Source: Acidocella aminolytica 101 = DSM 11237 (GTDB taxonomy: Bacteria; Pseudomonadota; Alphaproteobacteria; Acetobacterales; Acetobacteraceae). Taken from it: a stretch of DNA of 41,712 nucleotides. Positions 6,471 through 14,826 of this stretch are shown one piece after another. The DNA lies in contig NZ_FQVJ01000032.1 of assembly GCF_900129125.1 (NCBI RefSeq), positions 1-41,712 of the forward strand, read 5' to 3'. A model generated the notes under the pieces. That model had not been told where the DNA came from. It saw only the letters and a list, made by a program, of their open reading frames with translations, and ran no database searches. Both the position numbers and the translations under genes were made by a program. Numbering within the stretch: the stretch's first letter is position 1; each line of letters opens with the position of its first letter.

Positions 6471-7783
6471 TTATTTGAGTAATGTTAAAATTAACATATC
6501 AGGCCGCTGCACAACTCTTGCCCTAGCGGTGAGTTTGGCGAGGTTATGGGCAGTGCAGATCAATGCCCATTCTCTTTTTGCCTTATCGATACTGCGGAGG
6601 AGGAGTTGCCGGAAGCCTCTGGCCTGCTTGATGTGTCCAAACACGGGTTCGACGGTGTATTTTCGGATACGGTATCGGCTTTGATGTCCGCCTTTTCGGA
6701 GTCTGGCGCGCATGGCCTGAACCAGCTAGCCGCCTTTTTTGCCGCTGCTTGGCTTGCTTGCGCGCCCGGCCGCCACATAGCCGCGAACCGTGCACGCGTT
6801 GAGGTCCTCAAGATTGGCCTCCGAACAGAAGCCATTATCGGCGGAGACTTCGTTTGGCATCTCTCCAGCATTTGCCTCGACTGCATCGAGCAGCGCCAAC
6901 AGGGCGTCCTGATCAGAACCATTGTTGGTGAGGCGAAGCGCCACGATGATCTGGGCGCCAACATCGACAGCAACCTGTGCGTTGTACGCTTGGATGAAAC
7001 CATCGCGGCTTTTCATGATCCGGCTTTGCGGATCGGTGAAATTGCGCTGCGTCTTGGGCTTTGGTTTGCCTGGCTCGTGTTTTGGAGTTCTGCCTGGTTG
7101 TGGTTTAGGGCTGCCGTCAGGGGGGACGGCGGCCGCGGCCGGGCCGTTTCCGCAGCACGGGCTTCAGCTTCAAGCGCGGCCTTGGCGGCACGGATGCGCG
7201 CCAGCCGCGCCTGCTTGTCACGCATCCGGTCCGGTGGCTCGTCACCGCGGCGCGTACTGCCAAGGGTGGCATCTTCGGCCGCATCCTCGGTTGCCGCGCG
7301 CACCAGCCACGCGTCCACCTCGCGGGTGAGTTCAGCCTCGGCCTCCACCATGCGGGCGTAGCTCATCGCCTTATGCTTGTTGGAGGCGTTGGCTTTGATC
7401 TTGGTGCCGTCGACAGCGACATGCTCCAACCCAGCCAGGCCCGCCTTGCGGCAAAACGCCAGGACCTGCACGAACAGGCCAGCCAACGCATCAAGGTAGC
7501 GTCGGCGGAATTCGCTGATGGTCCGGAAGTCCGGCTGGTTGAGTGCCGTCACTGCCCGGAAGTCCAGACGCTCCTCGCAACCGCGCGCAATCCGGCGCGA
7601 CGAATAAACACCGCTGCGATAGGCGTAGAGCAGCAGCGCGACCATCATGGCCGGGTGATAAGGCGGATAGCCCTTCACCTCCGTATAGGCTCTCATGATC
7701 GCCGAAAGATCAAGCTCTTCACTGACCAGATCGCGGATCAGATGGGCCGGATGACCCGCAGGGACGAAACACTTTGCTCATGA
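6471..7783 (-). pseudogene. IS1182-family transposase, decayed
   Basis: The protein can be followed across minus-strand frames: MSKVFR at about 7783, then a deletion and shift, then FVPAGHPAHLIRDLVSEELD and YPPYHPAMMVALLLYAY. The catalytic region follows with HVAVDGTKIKANASNKHKAM. A frameshift lies near 7110, the frame resumes as RNFTDPQSRIMKSRDGF with YNAQVAVD, an in-frame TAG sits at 6726, and the tail has YTVEPVFGHIKQARGFRQ with the last glutamate. These are IS1182/IS5-like DDE motifs. One N-terminal deletion, one frameshift and one stop make it non-functional. It directly abuts the end of the AT-rich membrane gene (six bases apart). Confidence 0.85.
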
Positions 7784-8184: not shown

Positions 8185-9285
8185 GTGGCACTGTATTCAG
8201 CCAGAAACCTTAAGGAAAATACTGAAGTTTTAGGAATTCAGAATTGCTTTCAAGGGGGAAGGCTTCCGAAGGTTGGTTCGGAAGAGCAAACTAGCAGAAT
8301 ACCACAAAATAATAAGACAGCATCCCAGGAATTTTTTGTAGGCGAATGCCCGGCAATGCAGGATGTGTTTGTGCGCATTCGGCGTTTTGGGCAAGTTGAC
8401 GCACCTGTCTTGATCTCTGGCGAGACAGGCACGGGCAAGGAACTTGCTGCCAGGGCTATTCATCAGCGTTCCGCGCGTGCTAACGGGCCGTTTGTAGCGA
8501 TTAATTGCGCCGCCTTGCCGCCGACTCTGATTGAATCTGAGCTGTTCGGCTATGAAAAAGGCGCGTTTACCGGCGCTGTTTCGCGGAAGCTCGGACTAAT
8601 AGAACGTGCCGATGGAGGTACGTTGTTTCTGGATGAAATTGGTGATCTGCCGCACGATCTTCAGGCGCATATGCTGCGTTTTTTGCAGGAAAGCCTGATT
8701 ACCAGGCTAGGCGGGCACAATGCCATCCATGTTAATACGCGCATTATCTCAGCCACGCATGTAAATCTTGAAGCGGCGATTGAAGCTGGCCGATTCAGGG
8801 ATGATCTTTATTACAGGTTGAATGTTCTGCAGCTGCGAATGCCCGCTTTACGAGAGCGAGGTGATGATCTTTTGCTTCTGGCCTCTTATTTCCTGCGCCG
8901 GATCAGCCAGGAATTAGGAATGGAAGGCGGTGAGTTTACGCCAGTTGCCCGGCAGGCCATTTGTTCTCATTGCTGGCCTGGTAATGTCAGGGAGTTGATT
9001 GCGGCCATACGCCGGGCTGTTGTGATGAATGCAGGCGGTCCCATCAATCCTGAGGATCTGGCGATTCAGGCGCGGCCAGCTATACGGCATCAAGTGGTGC
9101 AGAGTGTCCCCCATGGGTTTCGCCCAGGGTCTGATGAAGAATATGAAGCCTTCATGCAAGCGCTTACGCGTCACCATAATAACGTTACGCGTGCGGCAGC
9201 GGAGATGGGGGTTTCACGCGTGACGTTCTACCGTAAGCTGAAGCGCCACGGCGATAAACCTAATCGCGGAGGGCAGAGCGACTGA
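8185..9285 (+). CDS. Sigma-54-dependent activator (AAA+ plus Fis-type HTH)
   Basis: A 366-residue bacterial enhancer-binding protein that would remodel closed sigma-54 RNA polymerase complexes. Residues 1-50 are a short unstructured-looking segment; there is no receiver, GAF or PAS domain. The AAA+ domain has Walker A GETGTGKE (79-86), the sigma-54-contacting GAFTGA loop (126-131), Walker B LFLDE (147-151) and the arginine-finger region [18 protein letters not shown] Fis-type helix-turn-helix closes the protein ([20 protein letters not shown]). The GTG start at 8185 follows an AGGAGGG site. Lacking a sensory domain, its activity must be set by its level or by a partner, as with PspF. It is the only activator near the operon at 10265-13037, which has a consensus sigma-54 promoter, so it is the likely regulator (inference). 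Confidence 0.93.
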
Positions 9286-9348: not shown

Positions 9349-9375
9349 GCTCCAGACTCACGGTCTGGAGCTTTT
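9349..9375 (+). terminator. Rho-independent terminator after the activator gene
   Basis: GCTCCAGAC, loop TCACG, GTCTGGAGC, then TTTT: a perfect 9-bp stem with a short T run, 64 bases after the activator stop. It overlaps the start of the IS5 remnant, so it may instead be part of that element's end. Confidence 0.6.
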
Positions 9376-10103
9376 GATGGCGACGAAGTGTTATGAGTTA
9401 TCTGGGAAGCAGTGGGGTCGGATTAGCTCGTTGATTGCTGGGAAAGCCTCTGACCCCGGCGGGACCGGGGCTGATAATCAATTGTTCGTGAACGCGGTTC
9501 TTTGGGCAATCCGCTCCGGCGCGCATTGGCATGACCTGCTGGATCGATACGGAAAATACAAAACCGTACATAAACGCTTCGCCCGATGGGCCAAAGCTGG
9601 CGTCTGGGAACGGATTTTTGATGACCTAACAAGTGATCCTGAGAACCAGTACCTCATGCTCGACAGCACCGTGGTCCGCGCCCATCAATAGGCAGCGAAC
9701 GGAAAAAGGGGGCCAAGAACTCGGCTCTGGGGCGTTCCAGAGGAGGATTGACTACCAGAAACCATACCCTCTCCGACACAGAAGGCAGGCCACTGCGCTT
9801 TATCCTTACCGGCGGAGAAGCACATGACACCACAGCCGCCGCTGATCTCTTGGATGGCCAAACTGCCGGCGGTGTCACACAGATAAGGCTTATGATTGCA
9901 ATGAACTCCGCGAAATGATCGAGGAGGCCAATATAGAGGTTGTCATCCCCTCAAAGCAAAATAGAAAGATCCAAATCCCACACGATGTCAAAGCCTATAA
10001 GCTGAGAAATCGCATCGAAATGTTCTTCAATAAGCTCAAACACTTCCGCAGGGTAGCAACCCGTTACGACCGAAGAGCCGTGCATTTCCTAGCAACCGTT
10101 TAA
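9374..10103 (+). pseudogene. IS5-family transposase, decayed
   Basis: The first frame (to 9691) has the N-terminal part of an IS5 enzyme of the IS427 type: YELSGKQWGRISSLI, NAVLWAIRSGAHWHDL, and the catalytic aspartate in LMLDSTVVRAHQ followed by a TAG stop. Later pieces appear in shifted frames: LRFILTGGEAHDTTAA, then VVIPSKQNRKIQIPHD and RNRIEMFFNKLKHFRR, with the final glutamate of the family's R..E motif. At least one stop and two frameshifts inactivate it. It sits between the sigma-54 activator and the operon it probably controls, and may have been inserted after the cluster formed. Confidence 0.85.
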
Positions 10104-10264: not shown

Positions 10265-10612
10265 CTATTTGGCTGTTCCGTTAATGGTGATGGTGCTGAT
10301 ACCGCTTAGTTCATTTTGTGATTTGATTGGCGGCTTTAACTCATCCCACAAAGTAATGGTACGGCTTGTGCTCGACATATTGCCAAGCCCAGGCCCCTGA
10401 AACCCGCTGCCCTTAATTGTGGCGATTGCCTGTGTGGGCAGTGGAGTAAGTGTAAGGCTGGCAGTGTCGATAACCGCTGTATTGGCGTTTTGCGCAGCTG
10501 CGGGAAGAGGAGAGAAGGCAAGCAAAACGGCAAAAAGCCTAGCCCAACTAGACCGAAGAAATACTGCCGGACGGTGCATCTGATCCTGCTTTAAAAGCTT
10601 CCAATCAGCCAT
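10265..10612 (-). CDS. Small secreted protein with a G-S processing motif
   Basis: 115 residues. After a basic start (with internal Met12 as an alternative) comes a hydrophobic Sec signal, LFAVLLAFSPLPAAAQ, likely cleaved near residue 41. Residues 58-69 read LPTQAIATIKGS, matching the shared pattern [LI]P-x3-[LI]-x2-[LI][RK]G[GAS] of three operon proteins. The mature part is short (about 45 residues) and ends ISTITINGTAK; there is no cysteine. The start at 10612 has AAGGA seven bases upstream. It is the last gene of the operon. I do not recognise a named family. By context it is a minor fibre component, a chaperone-like FapA counterpart or a peptide product of the C39 peptidase. Confidence 0.75.
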   Translation of the reverse strand: MADWKLLKQDQMHRPAVFLRSSWARLFAVLLAFSPLPAAAQNANTAVIDTASLTLTPLPTQAIATIKGSGFQGPGLGNMSSTSRTITLWDELKPPIKSQNELSGISTITINGTAK

Positions 10613-10676
10613 TTTTCATCCTTGTCAGGCGGTTGCCGCCAATTCTTACGGATGCCAGCCTACAGCTTCGTGCCTT

Positions 10677-11294
10677 TTATTTGAAGGCACTGCTCGTATA
10701 ATACATCCCTGACTGCACATTTGCAAAAGATTGTTGCTGCGTGAGGAACTGACTCATGCCCGTAATGGCGATATCCATTGTCGCGGCAACGCTGATGGCA
10801 GTGTTATTGGCTTGATTCGTCGTCAGATTTGAAATGCCGTTCGAACCAAGTTGCGTGTTGATTACGGTTAGTCCATTATTGGCTTTTGTCGCCAGATTCA
10901 CGGCGCTGCCGGATGACGGGGTAATGGTCTTAGAAGCGCCAGTGGAATCCGTTACCACAACGGAAGGCGCGCTCGACGGTATGGTGACCAGGGGAGAGGA
11001 AGACGAAGAGGCTGCCGCAGCCGTTACGTTTGTTTGCGGAATCATGATGCTTTTCACGATGATGCCGTTTACGGCTTCGATCTGCTTAAAAGCAAAATTA
11101 ATGGATAGGTTGTTGCCGAGGCTGAAACCGCCTCTGATATTGCGCAACTCACCATTGGGAATTTGTTGGCCTGTCAGCCCGAGAGAGGCAATTTCCATGC
11201 CCGCCGGTGCCGGAGTGGCCCAGGCGGGGGTTGACAGCAACGGCAGCGCGGCGGCGCTAAACCACCCTAATGCTTTGATGCTGTGCCGGATCAT
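10677..11294 (-). CDS. Secreted RGGF-motif protein with double-glycine leader motif
   Basis: 205 residues from the preferred start MIRHSIKALG; the longer frame from 11348 would overlap the peptidase gene and lacks a good ribosome-binding site. A Sec signal ends at PAWA (about 26). Residues 45-56, IPNGELRNIRGG, fit the classical double-glycine leader consensus LSxxELxxIxGG almost perfectly, followed by FSLGNNLSINFAF. I recall a poorly characterised RGGF family next to C39 peptidases in other proteobacteria. The middle is a low-complexity A/S/T/P linker (about 90-140). The C-terminal part (NQANNTAISVAATMD) weakly echoes the Q-N repeat motif of the other fibre proteins. It lies 28 bases after the C39 gene and is its best candidate substrate. 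Confidence 0.8.
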   Translation of the reverse strand: MIRHSIKALGWFSAAALPLLSTPAWATPAPAGMEIASLGLTGQQIPNGELRNIRGGFSLGNNLSINFAFKQIEAVNGIIVKSIMIPQTNVTAAAASSSSSPLVTIPSSAPSVVVTDSTGASKTITPSSGSAVNLATKANNGLTVINTQLGSNGISNLTTNQANNTAISVAATMDIAITGMSQFLTQQQSFANVQSGMYYTSSAFK

Positions 11295-11322
11295 CTGTTT
11301 TTTCCCTTCAGGATAAGCAACC

Positions 11323-12030
11323 TTAGAAGCGTAAGGAGTTCGGCACACTGACTTGTTGCAGCGTGGCCAGATTAACCATGAAGCGGGTAAGATTTAGCGG
11401 TGCGCCAGGTTCTTCAGACCAATCCTGCCCGCTGTTAAACCCGGCCCGCGCAAGTTTGACATGATCGAGAATGATAAAGAAGATACCAGACCATTGCTTG
11501 CGAAAACTGGAAATTGTTACGGTGCGTAACCCGATGGCGGGGTCCGCCAGGAGAACATGCCCGTCTTGTATACCACGTAAAACAACAAAATGCTTATATC
11601 CATGCTCGTCTATCAGGACAATGGCGGGAATCTTAATTTCCGCCAGCTTATAAAGCGGCGCCCGAAAACCGTCTGAAGGGATGCCGCGCCGGCTAAGATA
11701 GTCTTTCATGTCGAGCAGAGAAAACCCGGACTCCTCAATGGTTTTCCGATCGCCGTTTAGAAACATATTGGTGAAGACCGAACTTTCGCTGGCTTTGATG
11801 TGATATGTGTAAAGCAGGAGCGTTGCCAGTGCGGCGGACCCGCAGGAAAAATCATATTTCTGCTGGATCGTAGTATTGAATTTTCGAGCCTGAAAACTTT
11901 GTACGTCAATATTGGCAGCGCCAGCGCCGATTGTCAGGCCGTTCAAGGCTATCTGCCCGGCTCGCGCGGAGACGGGAGCGAGAAACAGAAGTAGCGCAAA
12001 ACAGCGGGCGGCCGATATGGCAAGTTTCAT
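11323..12030 (-). CDS. Secreted C39-family cysteine peptidase, FapD-like
   Basis: 235 residues with a Sec signal (LLLFLAPVSARAG, cleavage near residue 24). The papain-like C39 fold is shown by the oxyanion glutamine and nucleophile in QKYDFSCGSAALATLL (Gln57, Cys63), the histidine in YKHFVVLRG (His147) and the aspartate in LLADPAIG (Asp163). C39 enzymes cut after GG, GA or GS in leader peptides. Usually they are fused to an ABC exporter; here the enzyme is free and exported, as is FapD of the Pseudomonas Fap amyloid system. The start follows AGGAG. Neighbours on the same strand encode secreted proteins bearing GG/GA/GS motifs, so a maturation role in the periplasm is inferred. The catalytic triad is complete. 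Confidence 0.9.
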   Translation of the reverse strand: MKLAISAARCFALLLFLAPVSARAGQIALNGLTIGAGAANIDVQSFQARKFNTTIQQKYDFSCGSAALATLLLYTYHIKASESSVFTNMFLNGDRKTIEESGFSLLDMKDYLSRRGIPSDGFRAPLYKLAEIKIPAIVLIDEHGYKHFVVLRGIQDGHVLLADPAIGLRTVTISSFRKQWSGIFFIILDHVKLARAGFNSGQDWSEEPGAPLNLTRFMVNLATLQQVSVPNSLRF

Positions 12031-12051
12031 TTTTAGCTCCTGGCAATGCTC

Positions 12052-12420
12052 CTAATGAACGGTGATATTCACCGTCATGCTGCTTTGTATTAGGGCATTG
12101 TTACCGGTGTTTTGAATGACCGTTGTCAATCCGACGTTATTATTTACAGATCTCGTATTCGAAATCGACCCGGTGATGCTGTTATCAGCGCTGTTTCCCG
12201 TATTGGTACCTATGTTAACGGCGCCAACAAAGCCGGATGCGCCACGAAGTTTTGAGAGCTGTGAGGTGGGGAGCGCATCGGTACCAAGGGCGGCAACCAG
12301 GGCGTTACTATCGTTTGCGCTGGGACCGTTAGTGGCGCCGGAAGCGAGGGCGGGATACGCAAGAAGAGACAGCACACCGCTTAACGTAAGCTGAAGCACC
12401 GCTGTTCGCCAGGTTTTCAT
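12052..12420 (-). CDS. Small secreted Fap-like fibre protein with G-A motif
   Basis: 122 residues from MKTWRTAVLQ; the longer frame to 12489 is rejected because ACAGGAGACG gives a ribosome-binding site just before 12420. A Sec signal ends near ALASG (27-28). Residues 50-61, LPTSQLSKLRGA, match the double-glycine-like pattern. The mature part is rich in N, S, T and G, and ends with GLTTVIQNTGNNALIQSS at 97-114, very like the Q-N repeat of FapB/FapC/FapE and of the neighbouring 12540-13037 product. The CxC motif of Pseudomonas Fap proteins is missing. It sits 22 bases before the C39 gene, so they are surely co-transcribed. Likely fibre subunit or nucleator (inference). Confidence 0.8.
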   Translation of the reverse strand: MKTWRTAVLQLTLSGVLSLLAYPALASGATNGPSANDSNALVAALGTDALPTSQLSKLRGASGFVGAVNIGTNTGNSADNSITGSISNTRSVNNNVGLTTVIQNTGNNALIQSSMTVNITVH

Positions 12421-12539: not shown

Positions 12540-13037
12540 TTAGAAGCCGGAGAAGCCCGTGCCGCTACCGACATAAGAGCCGAGAGAGACGGAGTTCTGC
12601 TGCAGAGCGCCAATGCCGGTGTTCTGCTGAACGGTGTTGATACCGGAGGAACTAGCGTTTGCATAGCTCATTGAGGCGCTTCCAGTGGTAACCAGAGCAC
12701 CGGAGGACCTATGCCCGTCGCGATCGCCGTGGCTGCCTGCGCCAGTAAGGGTAAGACCACCTACTGAGCCGGAATTACCAGACTGAGCGAAGGTCACGTG
12801 CATGTGTGTGTTGGTCCTGGTATCGCTGAGGGCTACGTTGCCTACAGACAAAAGCATGCTGTCGTTAACGGCTGTGCTCCCGGTGGTCGCGGCATTGCCG
12901 CCATCTGTTGCAAGAGCGTTACCGGAAATAGGGATCGCGACGTTGGTGTTGGTTCCGCCGTCGCCACCGCCATAGGCCAATGCCATGCCGCCGCTCAGAA
13001 GAAATGCCGCTGTGGTCGCAAGGAATAGTGAGCGCAT
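12540..13037 (-). CDS. Secreted Gly/Ser/Thr/Asn-rich protein, putative major fibre subunit
   Basis: 165 residues, first gene of the operon. A Sec signal (MRSLFLATTAAFLLSGGMALA) is cleaved near residue 21. The mature protein is of low complexity, rich in G, S, T, A and N, with no cysteine and no tryptophan, and it includes a histidine/aspartate patch GSHGDRDGHR (101-110). Near the end GINTVQQNTGIGALQQNS (132-149) matches the QNTG..AL.Q.S motif of the 12052-12420 product and of Fap fibre proteins. The start is supported by GGAAAGGA. The promoter-proximal position behind the sigma-54 site suits the most abundant product, as FapC would be. No GG/GA/GS processing motif as clear as in the other three is present. 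Confidence 0.8.
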   Translation of the reverse strand: MRSLFLATTAAFLLSGGMALAYGGGDGGTNTNVAIPISGNALATDGGNAATTGSTAVNDSMLLSVGNVALSDTRTNTHMHVTFAQSGNSGSVGGLTLTGAGSHGDRDGHRSSGALVTTGSASMSYANASSSGINTVQQNTGIGALQQNSVSLGSYVGSGTGFSGF

Positions 13038-13123: not shown

Positions 13124-13139
13124 AGCAAGTGGCGTGCCA
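13124..13139 (-). promoter_or_regulatory. Consensus sigma-54 promoter of the secreted-protein operon
   Basis: On the minus strand: TGGCACG, four bases CCAC, TTGCT, preceded by CTT. This matches the sigma-54 consensus TGGCACG-N4-TTGCW at every conserved position, with the GG (-24) and GC (-12) correctly spaced. It lies about 87 bases upstream of the start at 13037, leaving a leader of roughly 75 bases. Confidence 0.9.
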
Positions 13140-13449: not shown

Positions 13450-14826
13450 ATGATACGGAGCAGTCTGGTGGAAAAAGCATGGCATTCGAGTAAAGCATTT
13501 CTTGAACGTTCAGCGGTTTTGCCTTTGCCGCTATTTCTTTGTCTGGCTGCCGGGCAGCAGGCAAAGGCGCAAACGTCGATGAGTGATCTAACGGCCTTGC
13601 AAAAATCTATCGCGGCGCAGCAAGCGAAATTACAAGAGCAGGAAGAGGATTTGGCGCGCCAGGTGCTGCAACTGCAAAAGCAACAGCAGCTTCTGAATTC
13701 AGAGATGGCAAAGATGCGCGGTATGGGAACGCCCGCCCCTGCTGCGCAACAAGTGGTTCAGGAAGGACCGGTTTCAACGTCCACCCCAGAAGATGCACCC
13801 GCGCCCACGGCCACCGCCGGTGCGGAGCAGAAGCAGGCCAAGACGCAGAACCAGGAGGACCAGACCAAGATCATTCTGCAATCGTCAACTGTTCTGTCCA
13901 ATACGGGTGGCGTTCTAACGCCGAAAGGCCAGTTGGTTATTGATCCGTCTGTGGAATATGATTACTGGACGCAAAATCAGCTCAACCTTAACGGGTTTAC
14001 AATTATTCCAGGTATTACTTTTGGGAATATTTTTATTTCCCGTGTTGATCAGCGTTACATCATGCCTGCTCTTACCTTGCGTTATGGCGTGACGAACCGG
14101 ATGGAAATCAATCTCAAGGTTCCGTTTGTACTTGGGTGGGGGAGCACGACTGCACAACAGGCCGGAGCGTCGGCGCTGCCGTTAACAGCCAGCGCCAATG
14201 CGGCTGATATTGGGGACATTCAGTTTGGCGCATCTTATCAGTTTAATTCTGGTGATAATGGCTGGCCGATTTTTGTCGGCAACCTGACGTTTAAGACGGC
14301 GACAGGGCAGAACCCGTATGAGGTGCCGATTTATAACGCCCAGAATACAAGCGACCAGCTTTTGTATGGCATTCCGAAAAAACTCCCCACCGGCACAGGG
14401 TTCTATGCGCTGGAGCCGAGTTTGACGGTGTTTTACGCCACGGCACCCGGCGTGTTGTTCGGCAACCTTCAATATATAAAAAATTTCAGCAACACGTTTA
14501 CCGTGCCCAACACGACTGGCGGGCCGGGCTCGCGGGTTGATCTTTCTCCGGGGCAGGCGCTGGCCGCGACATTTGGTCTCGGTTTCGCACTGAATGATAA
14601 AGCGTCAATGACGCTGAGTTATCAGGAGGAGCATGTTTTCCCCGCTTCTGCGAATGGAAGCCAGCTAGCAGGTTCGTCCTATGATTTTGGGACATTCAAT
14701 TTTGGGCTGGGTTATAACATCTCAAAGCGGACCAGCCTGAATATCGGGGTGGGGATCGGCGTGGGGCCGTATGCGCCGGCAGCGAAGATATTGGTTGAAG
14801 TGCCGATCCGCATGAACCTGTTCTGA
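13450..14826 (+). CDS. Outer-membrane FapF-like protein: coiled-coil plus beta-barrel
   Basis: 458 residues as read. A signal peptide (LPLPLFLCLAAGQQAKAQ, cleaved near 41) is followed by a heptad-rich coiled-coil (about 46-92, LQKSIAAQQAKLQEQEEDLA), then a Pro/Ala/Thr/Gln linker to about 145. From VLTPKGQLVIDPSVEYDY onward an amphipathic beta-barrel domain of about 310 residues ends in IRMNLF; the terminal phenylalanine is the usual outer-membrane assembly signal. FapF has exactly this architecture (trimerising coiled-coil, linker, barrel with a similar VLTP-KG entry) and exports the amyloid subunits. Start: ATG 13450 has a weak ribosome site; GTG 13468 (codon 7) follows CGGAG seven bases earlier and may be the true start. 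It is divergent from the secreted-protein operon. Confidence 0.82.
   Translation: MIRSSLVEKAWHSSKAFLERSAVLPLPLFLCLAAGQQAKAQTSMSDLTALQKSIAAQQAKLQEQEEDLARQVLQLQKQQQLLNSEMAKMRGMGTPAPAAQQVVQEGPVSTSTPEDAPAPTATAGAEQKQAKTQNQEDQTKIILQSSTVLSNTGGVLTPKGQLVIDPSVEYDYWTQNQLNLNGFTIIPGITFGNIFISRVDQRYIMPALTLRYGVTNRMEINLKVPFVLGWGSTTAQQAGASALPLTASANAADIGDIQFGASYQFNSGDNGWPIFVGNLTFKTATGQNPYEVPIYNAQNTSDQLLYGIPKKLPTGTGFYALEPSLTVFYATAPGVLFGNLQYIKNFSNTFTVPNTTGGPGSRVDLSPGQALAATFGLGFALNDKASMTLSYQEEHVFPASANGSQLAGSSYDFGTFNFGLGYNISKRTSLNIGVGIGVGPYAPAAKILVEVPIRMNLF

Follow-up and report, generated by a model that had tools for sequence, protein, structure and literature searches.

A FapD-like peptidase locus in Acidocella aminolytica

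We analysed 41,712 nucleotides of contig NZ_FQVJ01000032.1 (assembly GCF_900129125.1) from Acidocella aminolytica 101 = DSM 11237, hereafter the window, with regard to a short motif shared by exported proteins that are encoded beside a free peptidase of family C39. The window holds an Acidocella-type locus comprising a FapD-like C39 peptidase, a FapF-like channel and four exported proteins:

11323..12030, minus strand: FapD-type free C39 peptidase, 235 amino acids (aa), N-terminal hydrophobic signal sequence
10677..11294, minus strand: protein A, 205 aa, exported, in the FapE position; propeptide, then motif, then beta-rich domain
12052..12420, minus strand: protein B, 122 aa, exported, QNTGNN-type repeat at the C-terminus
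10265..10612, minus strand: protein C, 115 aa, exported, LWDEL segment downstream of the motif
12540..13037, minus strand: FapB/C-like repeat protein, 165 aa, exported, without the motif (best motif score -5.8 bits)
13450..14826, plus strand: FapF-like outer-membrane channel with signal, coiled-coil-like stretch, linker and beta-barrel (NCBIfam FapF, 9.6e-46)

The peptidase has a C39 domain with the Gln, Cys, His and Asp residues of the family (Gln57, Cys63, His147, Asp163), all invariant across an alignment of 43 sequences that includes it. No ATP-binding cassette (ABC) domain was matched in its 235-aa open reading frame (ORF), and the solved structures nearest to its model are double-glycine peptidases. 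It scores 153.1 bits against the FapD equivalog model NF058616 (cut-off 330) and 110.1 bits against the FilB model (cut-off 475), and is a FapD-type relative rather than the equivalog. None of 121 pattern matches in viral contigs was a relative of the peptidase.

A leader-like motif behind the signal sequences

Numbered backwards from a presumed cut after position -1, the motif occurs four times in the window:

11127..11162, minus strand: IPNGELRNIRGG (-12 to -1), protein A residues 45-56
12238..12273, minus strand: LPTSQLSKLRGA, protein B residues 50-61, 16.8 bits
10406..10441, minus strand: LPTQAIATIKGS, protein C residues 58-69, 11.2 bits
13690..13725, plus strand: LLNSEMAKMRGM, FapF-like protein residues 81-92, between coiled coil and barrel, 21.4 bits

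A first-pass annotation of the window had described the copies in A, B and C, and its coordinates and the ATG starts of the three ORFs are borne out; its estimate that the motif begins about 17-23 residues past the likely signal-peptide site also agrees with our inspection by eye. All three proteins named there are motif bearers, but the list lacked the fourth copy in the channel. The [LI]P-type pattern used in that annotation matches 3 of 239 window ORFs of at least 60 aa, exactly A, B and C, none of the 225 exported ORFs of 20 control regions, and shuffled A, B and C at rates of 0, 5e-5 and 1e-4 (20,000 rounds), although these control and shuffle values are flattering because the pattern was built after viewing the data. 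It fits A, B and C, yet LP at -12/-11 is a local feature and not a general one.

In the A, B, C and channel copies, position -12 is I, L, L and L, position -7 is L, L, I and M, and position -4 is I, L, I and M, hydrophobic in every case. Positions -2/-1 read GG in A, GA in B and GS in C, as in C39 leaders, and GM, outside that set, in the channel. A hydrophobic signal sequence precedes each motif, an arrangement that differs from the cytosolic leaders of ABC exporters. In a low-confidence model of protein A (predicted local distance difference test, pLDDT, 69), a short helix is predicted at residues 47-50 of the motif and strands from residue 64.

Recovery of the motif across C39 loci

Loci with a C39 gene (L numbers below) were drawn from Acidocella relatives, from the class, from 80 named loci (the best 80 of at least 594 relatives, with at least 596 pattern matches) and from the phylum, including Pseudomonas-type Fap loci, a label that rests on exceeding the FapD model cut-off. 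The matches were partly sampled, with 30 regions for Acidocella relatives and the class together and 20 from the phylum, for which a search of 397 genomes gave matches in 102, often to ABC exporters. Dropping 11 near-duplicates (95% identity) reduced 130 loci to 119. Exported ORFs within 4.5 kb of the C39 gene numbered 798 (530 on the same strand), compared with 225 in control regions.

An unsupervised search of 517 same-strand exported ORFs (zero or one occurrence per sequence, ZOOPS; width 14; a randomly drawn seed that itself held RGG) returned L/V(-12)-S/D-x-x-E(-8)-L(-7)-x-x-L/M(-4)-R(-3)-G(-2)-G/R(-1)-F/Y with an occupancy of 41%. Its log-likelihood was 1612, against 376 and 364 for two shuffles; on 202 control sequences the same procedure reached 306 and found low-complexity sequence only. 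Arginine occupies -3 in 73% of cases, and -2 is Gly in 79% and Ala in 14%; R(-3) is about as conserved as Gly -2, and on its role the first-pass annotation needs correction.

At 10 bits or more, the resulting profile matched 198 of 530 same-strand ORFs, 18 of 268 on the opposite strand, 1 of 225 controls and 10 of 1590 shuffled sequences, counts to be read with the profile having been trained on part of the same data. We also applied a strict filter, which requires a profile match, Gly at -2, and R, K, H, S, T, N or Q at -3. Strict matches occurred in 99 of 111 FapD-type loci and in none of the 225 control exported ORFs; the eight other loci (seven of the fourth clade described below, and L076) gave none because their -3 and -2 residues differ. 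The 15 strict matches on the opposite strand are all FapF-like channels. Adding family-based patterns, which have a chance rate of 4-7%, raises the count to 109 of 111 FapD-type loci, leaving L094 and L113 without any. At 9 bits or more, 111 of 119 loci match, but we prefer the strict count because the 9-bit count contains false matches. A neighbour-gene test (111/111 versus 32/111 shuffled) is weak, with several overlapping ORFs pooled.

In 176 strict matches, hydrophobic residues fill -12 in 89%, -7 in 99% and -4 in 59%, with Glu(-8) in 35% and Ser(-11) in 28%; these shares are partly imposed, since the matches were selected with the same profile, which itself was found without that selection. 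The spacing equals that of the double-glycine leaders read by LahT150 and ComA in the comparison excerpted from PMC6363468, where the LahT150 groove is described as taking leader residues L-12, L-7 and V-4. Several precursors have the motif roughly 100 or more residues past the likely signal peptide, as judged by eye. A Cupriavidus precursor (L124, 6595-7881) has three in-register copies at residues 82, 203 and 273, the first two before low-complexity stretches.

Protein families with and without the motif

As the first-pass annotation had proposed, we aligned homologues of protein A (37 of 71 family ORFs, hand-chosen for moderate length), and the motif proved to be the most conserved part: the only invariant columns are L50, R54, G55 and G56 (-7, -3, -2 and -1) and N160. 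By pattern, the motif was found in 65 of 71 protein A relatives (six lack it), in 17 of 20 Pseudomonas-type FapE proteins, in 66 of 100 protein B relatives, in all 8 protein C relatives and in 38 of 113 FapF-like proteins, against 4-7% of shuffles. The B family consists of short ORFs matched by a post-motif profile (6.6% of shuffles), and the members of the C family, defined by a hidden Markov model, are all from Acidocella.

Outside Acidocella, 53 of 60 protein A relatives reach 8 bits for the motif, and a profile built on these 53 found it in 44 of the 100 B-family ORFs (0.1% of shuffles) and 13 of the 20 Pseudomonas-type FapE matches (0.0% of shuffles); within the window it gave LPTSQLSKLRGA 9.8 bits and LPTQAIATIKGS -6.8 bits. 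The post-motif parts of A, E and C have no detectable homology (hhalign 0.3-0.6%), and the A-B match (91%) is limited to a 28-column C-terminal repeat. LWDE proteins resembling protein C are also present in other families, and in most of them the motif precedes the LWDE segment by 20-30 residues, L061 being a weak example.

In Pseudomonas-type FapE the motif stands directly behind the signal peptide, for example ELNDQELASLRGRYVMPG, and the FapE-type protein of L184 matches NCBIfam FapE. In locus L193 there are two C39 genes of FapD type, and a separate FapE-type gene follows each. Of the 11 Acidocella loci whose C39 gene is complete, 10, the window included, have a channel copy; L048 is the exception. 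Another scan matched 37 of 113 FapF-like proteins, at least two of which (L069, L131) are evidently spurious. High scores in Pseudomonas FapF (L184, L192) proved to be coiled-coil heptads without Gly -2, which the strict filter drops. The FapB/FapC-type proteins of the window, L184, L192 (FapB only) and L194 stay below 8 bits.

Position -1 and the C39 clades

The first-pass annotation had limited position -1 to G, A or S, which does not hold: among 105 A/FapE-type proteins it is G in 82 and R or K in 18, all of the latter belonging to the canonical FapD clade and covering the FapE of all 18 loci of that clade (L058-L060, L184-L201). In three of the remaining five (L130, L109, L100) the pattern is out of register and the true residues are RGG; these three and L090, a doubtful case (FGR), were set to 'small' by hand in the tree. 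C39 position 65 is Ala in the 18 canonical FapD loci and Ser in 80 of 82 others, and many further C39 residues vary along with the residue at -1.

A tree of 126 rows separates the canonical FapD clade (18 rows, support 100/98), a fourth clade (7 rows, 100/93) and, with weaker support (92/79), a FilB-like group (7 rows), with the RGG type in the remaining group; the labels FilB and fourth clade were assigned by the kind of peptidase and not by the motif. FilB-like peptidases score 283-310 bits, all below the FilB cut-off of 475, and their exported neighbours carry in-register motifs such as SMDDAALSGVTGQDG behind the signal peptide. A pattern made for FilA-type proteins yielded eight motif proteins in 6 of the 7 FilB-like loci and none in L235 or in the non-Fil locus L237; one of the eight was scanned and matched DUF6160, with 61 bits for FilA (cut-off 220). 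Beside fourth-clade peptidases, 5 of 7 loci have exported neighbours with motifs resembling LSDTQMDSVVGG (profile at 10 bits or more, plus inspection by eye). In L076, a 146-aa exported, glycine-rich, bacteriocin-like protein (6565-7005) has LTEEERKNITGA behind its signal peptide, and its gene sits immediately upstream of a free C39 gene in divergent orientation; it is possibly a Sec-exported peptide with a C39 leader.

Interpretation and alternative explanations

We consider it probable that the motif serves as a leader of double-glycine type, preceded by a Sec signal, and that the neighbouring periplasmic FapD-type C39 peptidase reads it and cuts after -1. Motif, register, conservation, genomic linkage and intact catalytic residues are all evident at the level of sequence, and on this footing a putative recognition rule for periplasmic C39 peptidases is strongly supported. 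The proposal of the first-pass annotation that FapD-type enzymes follow a concrete substrate rule thus stands as a strong inference, because the motif is shared, has the highest conservation in A, occurs in families without detectable homology and keeps the C39-leader register. A cut after -1 is its most likely meaning, as judged from homology, from catalytic residues that are intact, and from published work on a FapD cysteine mutant and on FapE by mass spectrometry (PMC5557850, in excerpt).

If this is correct, Sec would export A, B, C and the FapF-like channel, and signal peptidase would trim them. The C39 peptidase would then bind the motif in the form of a short amphipathic helix, making contact at the hydrophobic positions -12, -7 and -4, Gly -2 would fit its narrow cleft, and the cut would fall after -1. 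The mature domains of A, B and C would be freed from a propeptide of fewer than 10 to more than 100 residues, and in the channel the cut would part the coiled coil from the barrel, so that processing might license or end amyloid secretion.

Our motif results agree with the published FapD and FapE data in the available passages of PMC5557850. There, FapD is reported to be required for amyloid secretion, which its Cys38Ala variant abolishes, while its target is called unclear and the Fap proteins are said to be without canonical C39 sequences; FapE is the only Fap protein for which mass spectrometry gave no N-terminal peptides, and the FapF linker may be processed. As excerpted, a December 2025 review (PMC12822426) regards FapD as only thought to process FapE and FapF, and another paper (PMC10638192) states that FapD modifies FapC. 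We did not find the rule in print in the open-licence literature, a coverage that leaves out most subscription papers and so does not prove its absence.

Several observations weigh against this interpretation. We infer binding, cleavage, the position of the cut and the effect on secretion, and this counts against the claim of cleavage in particular. The peptide-free part of FapE spans about 70 residues in the excerpted data (PMC5557850), more than a cut at the motif would remove by itself, and canonical FapE has R or K at -1 and the window channel has M, unlike the classic GG, GA or GS. The pattern is missing from 75 of 113 FapF-like proteins, and no protein C relative (0/8) reaches 8 bits with the protein A profile, which is itself partly dependent, as its sites were placed with the all-family profile and four ORFs belong to both A and B. 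FapA was rejected as a substrate: the pattern occurs in 3 of 13 proteins compared with 28% of shuffles, and the best protein A profile score is -0.9 bits; the single case in L192, PLGDADFARVSGGVG, looks good, but the family does not exceed chance. Of 32 strict matches outside named families, about four seem unrelated (two in L068, one in L114, one in L193); the one in L193, at 13.4 bits in a FapC-like protein, overlaps the end of the signal peptide and is probably spurious. Signal peptides were called by a home-made rule, and those of the window by eye. Covariation between C39 residues and position -1 was dropped as evidence because the tree shows a single evolutionary split between clades.

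The best-surviving alternative, though unlikely in our view, is docking without cutting, in which FapD would be a chaperone or receptor that binds the motif in the manner of HlyB's inactive C39-like domain, with proteolysis taking place elsewhere. The register of the helix suits a binding groove that lies some 20 Å away from the active site, and R, K, M or T at -1 would be unusual for a C39 cut site. A docking helix, however, would have no need for the Gly (79%) or Ala (14%) at -2, the alignment of 43 sequences shows no variation at Cys, His and Asp, and the Cys38Ala variant of FapD abolishes secretion (PMC5557850, in excerpt).

Less likely again is that another component, for instance the coiled coil of FapF or a sorter for secretion, reads the motif, and that the motif's likeness to C39 leaders is convergent. 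Linkage alone cannot separate C39 from FapF as the reader because 113 of 119 loci hold a FapF-like gene, and motif and coiled coil are both short amphipathic helices. The channel itself, however, bears the motif (the 38 pattern matches given above), and motif-bearing exported neighbours occur in four loci (L066, L088, L128, L134) in which no FapF-like gene was found within the 6 kb searched, some of the contigs being short. The register is moreover that of C39 leaders, and other C39 clades adjoin motif flavours of their own.

Common descent, with A, B, C and FapE as paralogues sharing a structural N-terminus, could draw on the A-B C-terminal repeat and on a gene order that is alike in many loci; we regard it as very improbable as a full account, given the lack of detectable post-motif homology between A, E and C, the copy in the channel and the three copies in one protein. 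The low-confidence model would also put the motif in a flexible place before the beta domain, and common descent and a substrate role are mutually compatible. Chance resemblance or a low-complexity artefact, which the fitting of the first-pass pattern to three sequences might suggest, is already excluded for practical purposes by the 0/225 controls, the shuffle rates of at most 1e-4 and the de novo recovery beside 119 C39 loci.

A broader reading, whose chances we see as evenly balanced, is that free periplasmic C39 peptidases (canonical FapD, the window type, FilB-like and the fourth clade) serve one general Sec-then-C39 maturation pathway. Its leader code would come in the clade flavours RGG, RG[RK], TGQ and [VA][GA]G on several unrelated surface-fibre families, in some lineages including the channel, where cleavage would separate the gate from the barrel and act as a switch for secretion.

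The motif offers a testable answer to the question of the FapD target in bacterial amyloid fibre formation, and its position-specific form reduces that question to single-residue tests. From it, mature N-termini can also be predicted for several exported protein families without names, both in Pseudomonadota and in genomes of Geobacteraceae type (L083, L084).

Operon layout and regulation

On the minus strand, from 13037 to 10265, the genes run FapB/C-like protein, protein B, C39 peptidase, protein A and protein C, with the channel gene divergent to these five. Two further features bear on their regulation:

13124..13139, minus strand: sigma-54 -24/-12 promoter-like site TGGCACGCCACTTGCT, upstream of the operon
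8185..9285, plus strand: sigma-54 activator, AAA+ with Fis-type helix-turn-helix (Pfam PF00158, 1e-69; PF02954, 9.9e-11)

TGGCACGCCACTTGCT is the sole mismatch-free sigma-54 promoter-like match in the window. Counting the window, 9 of 11 Acidocella loci have such a site in the corresponding position (all but L051 and L052), as do 10 of 90 loci outside Acidocella; the control regions have none. The five minus-strand genes probably form one operon, because the promoter-like site recurs in Acidocella loci; its regulation is probably sigma-54 dependent, and the activator is its likely regulator. Transposase-like ORFs flank the activator at 7013-7696 and 9374-10103 (DUF772; DUF4096 plus a sub-threshold DDE match).

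Comparison with known systems

With Pseudomonas Fap (FapA-F) the window shares homologous FapD and FapF, and canonical FapE bears the motif; it differs by the additional exported proteins B and C and by GG in place of GR or GK. Of the Fap operon models only FapF matches, at 156.4 bits (cut-off 700), and no other window protein matches NCBIfam FapA or FapE up to E = 1, so that the locus falls outside the Fap operon definition.

The Fil system (FilA/DUF6160, FilB C39, FilC) likewise combines a free C39 peptidase with a barrel of related families, and the FilB and FilC models match window proteins. FilA-type proteins beside FilB-like peptidases carry an in-register L-x-x-V/A-T-G-Q, with T at -3, Q at -1 and a separate group in the tree; no window protein matches FilA up to E = 1, and the locus falls outside the Fil definition as well.

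The closest parallel in leader and enzyme is found in bacteriocin and quorum-signal double-glycine leaders and the C39 domains of peptidase-containing ABC transporters (PCAT/AMS; LahT150, ComA, PCAT1), with which the window-type loci share L-12, E-8, L-7, a hydrophobic -4, Gly -2 and a small -1 on the leader side, and the C39 fold and catalytic residues on the enzyme side. Unlike in those systems, the peptidase here is free, exported and without an ABC transporter, and the substrates pass Sec first, within an amyloid-type system; R predominates at -3 (the 73% noted above), and R, K or Q occur at -1. The leader code of cytosolic bacteriocin exporters would thus have been moved to the periplasm, behind Sec.

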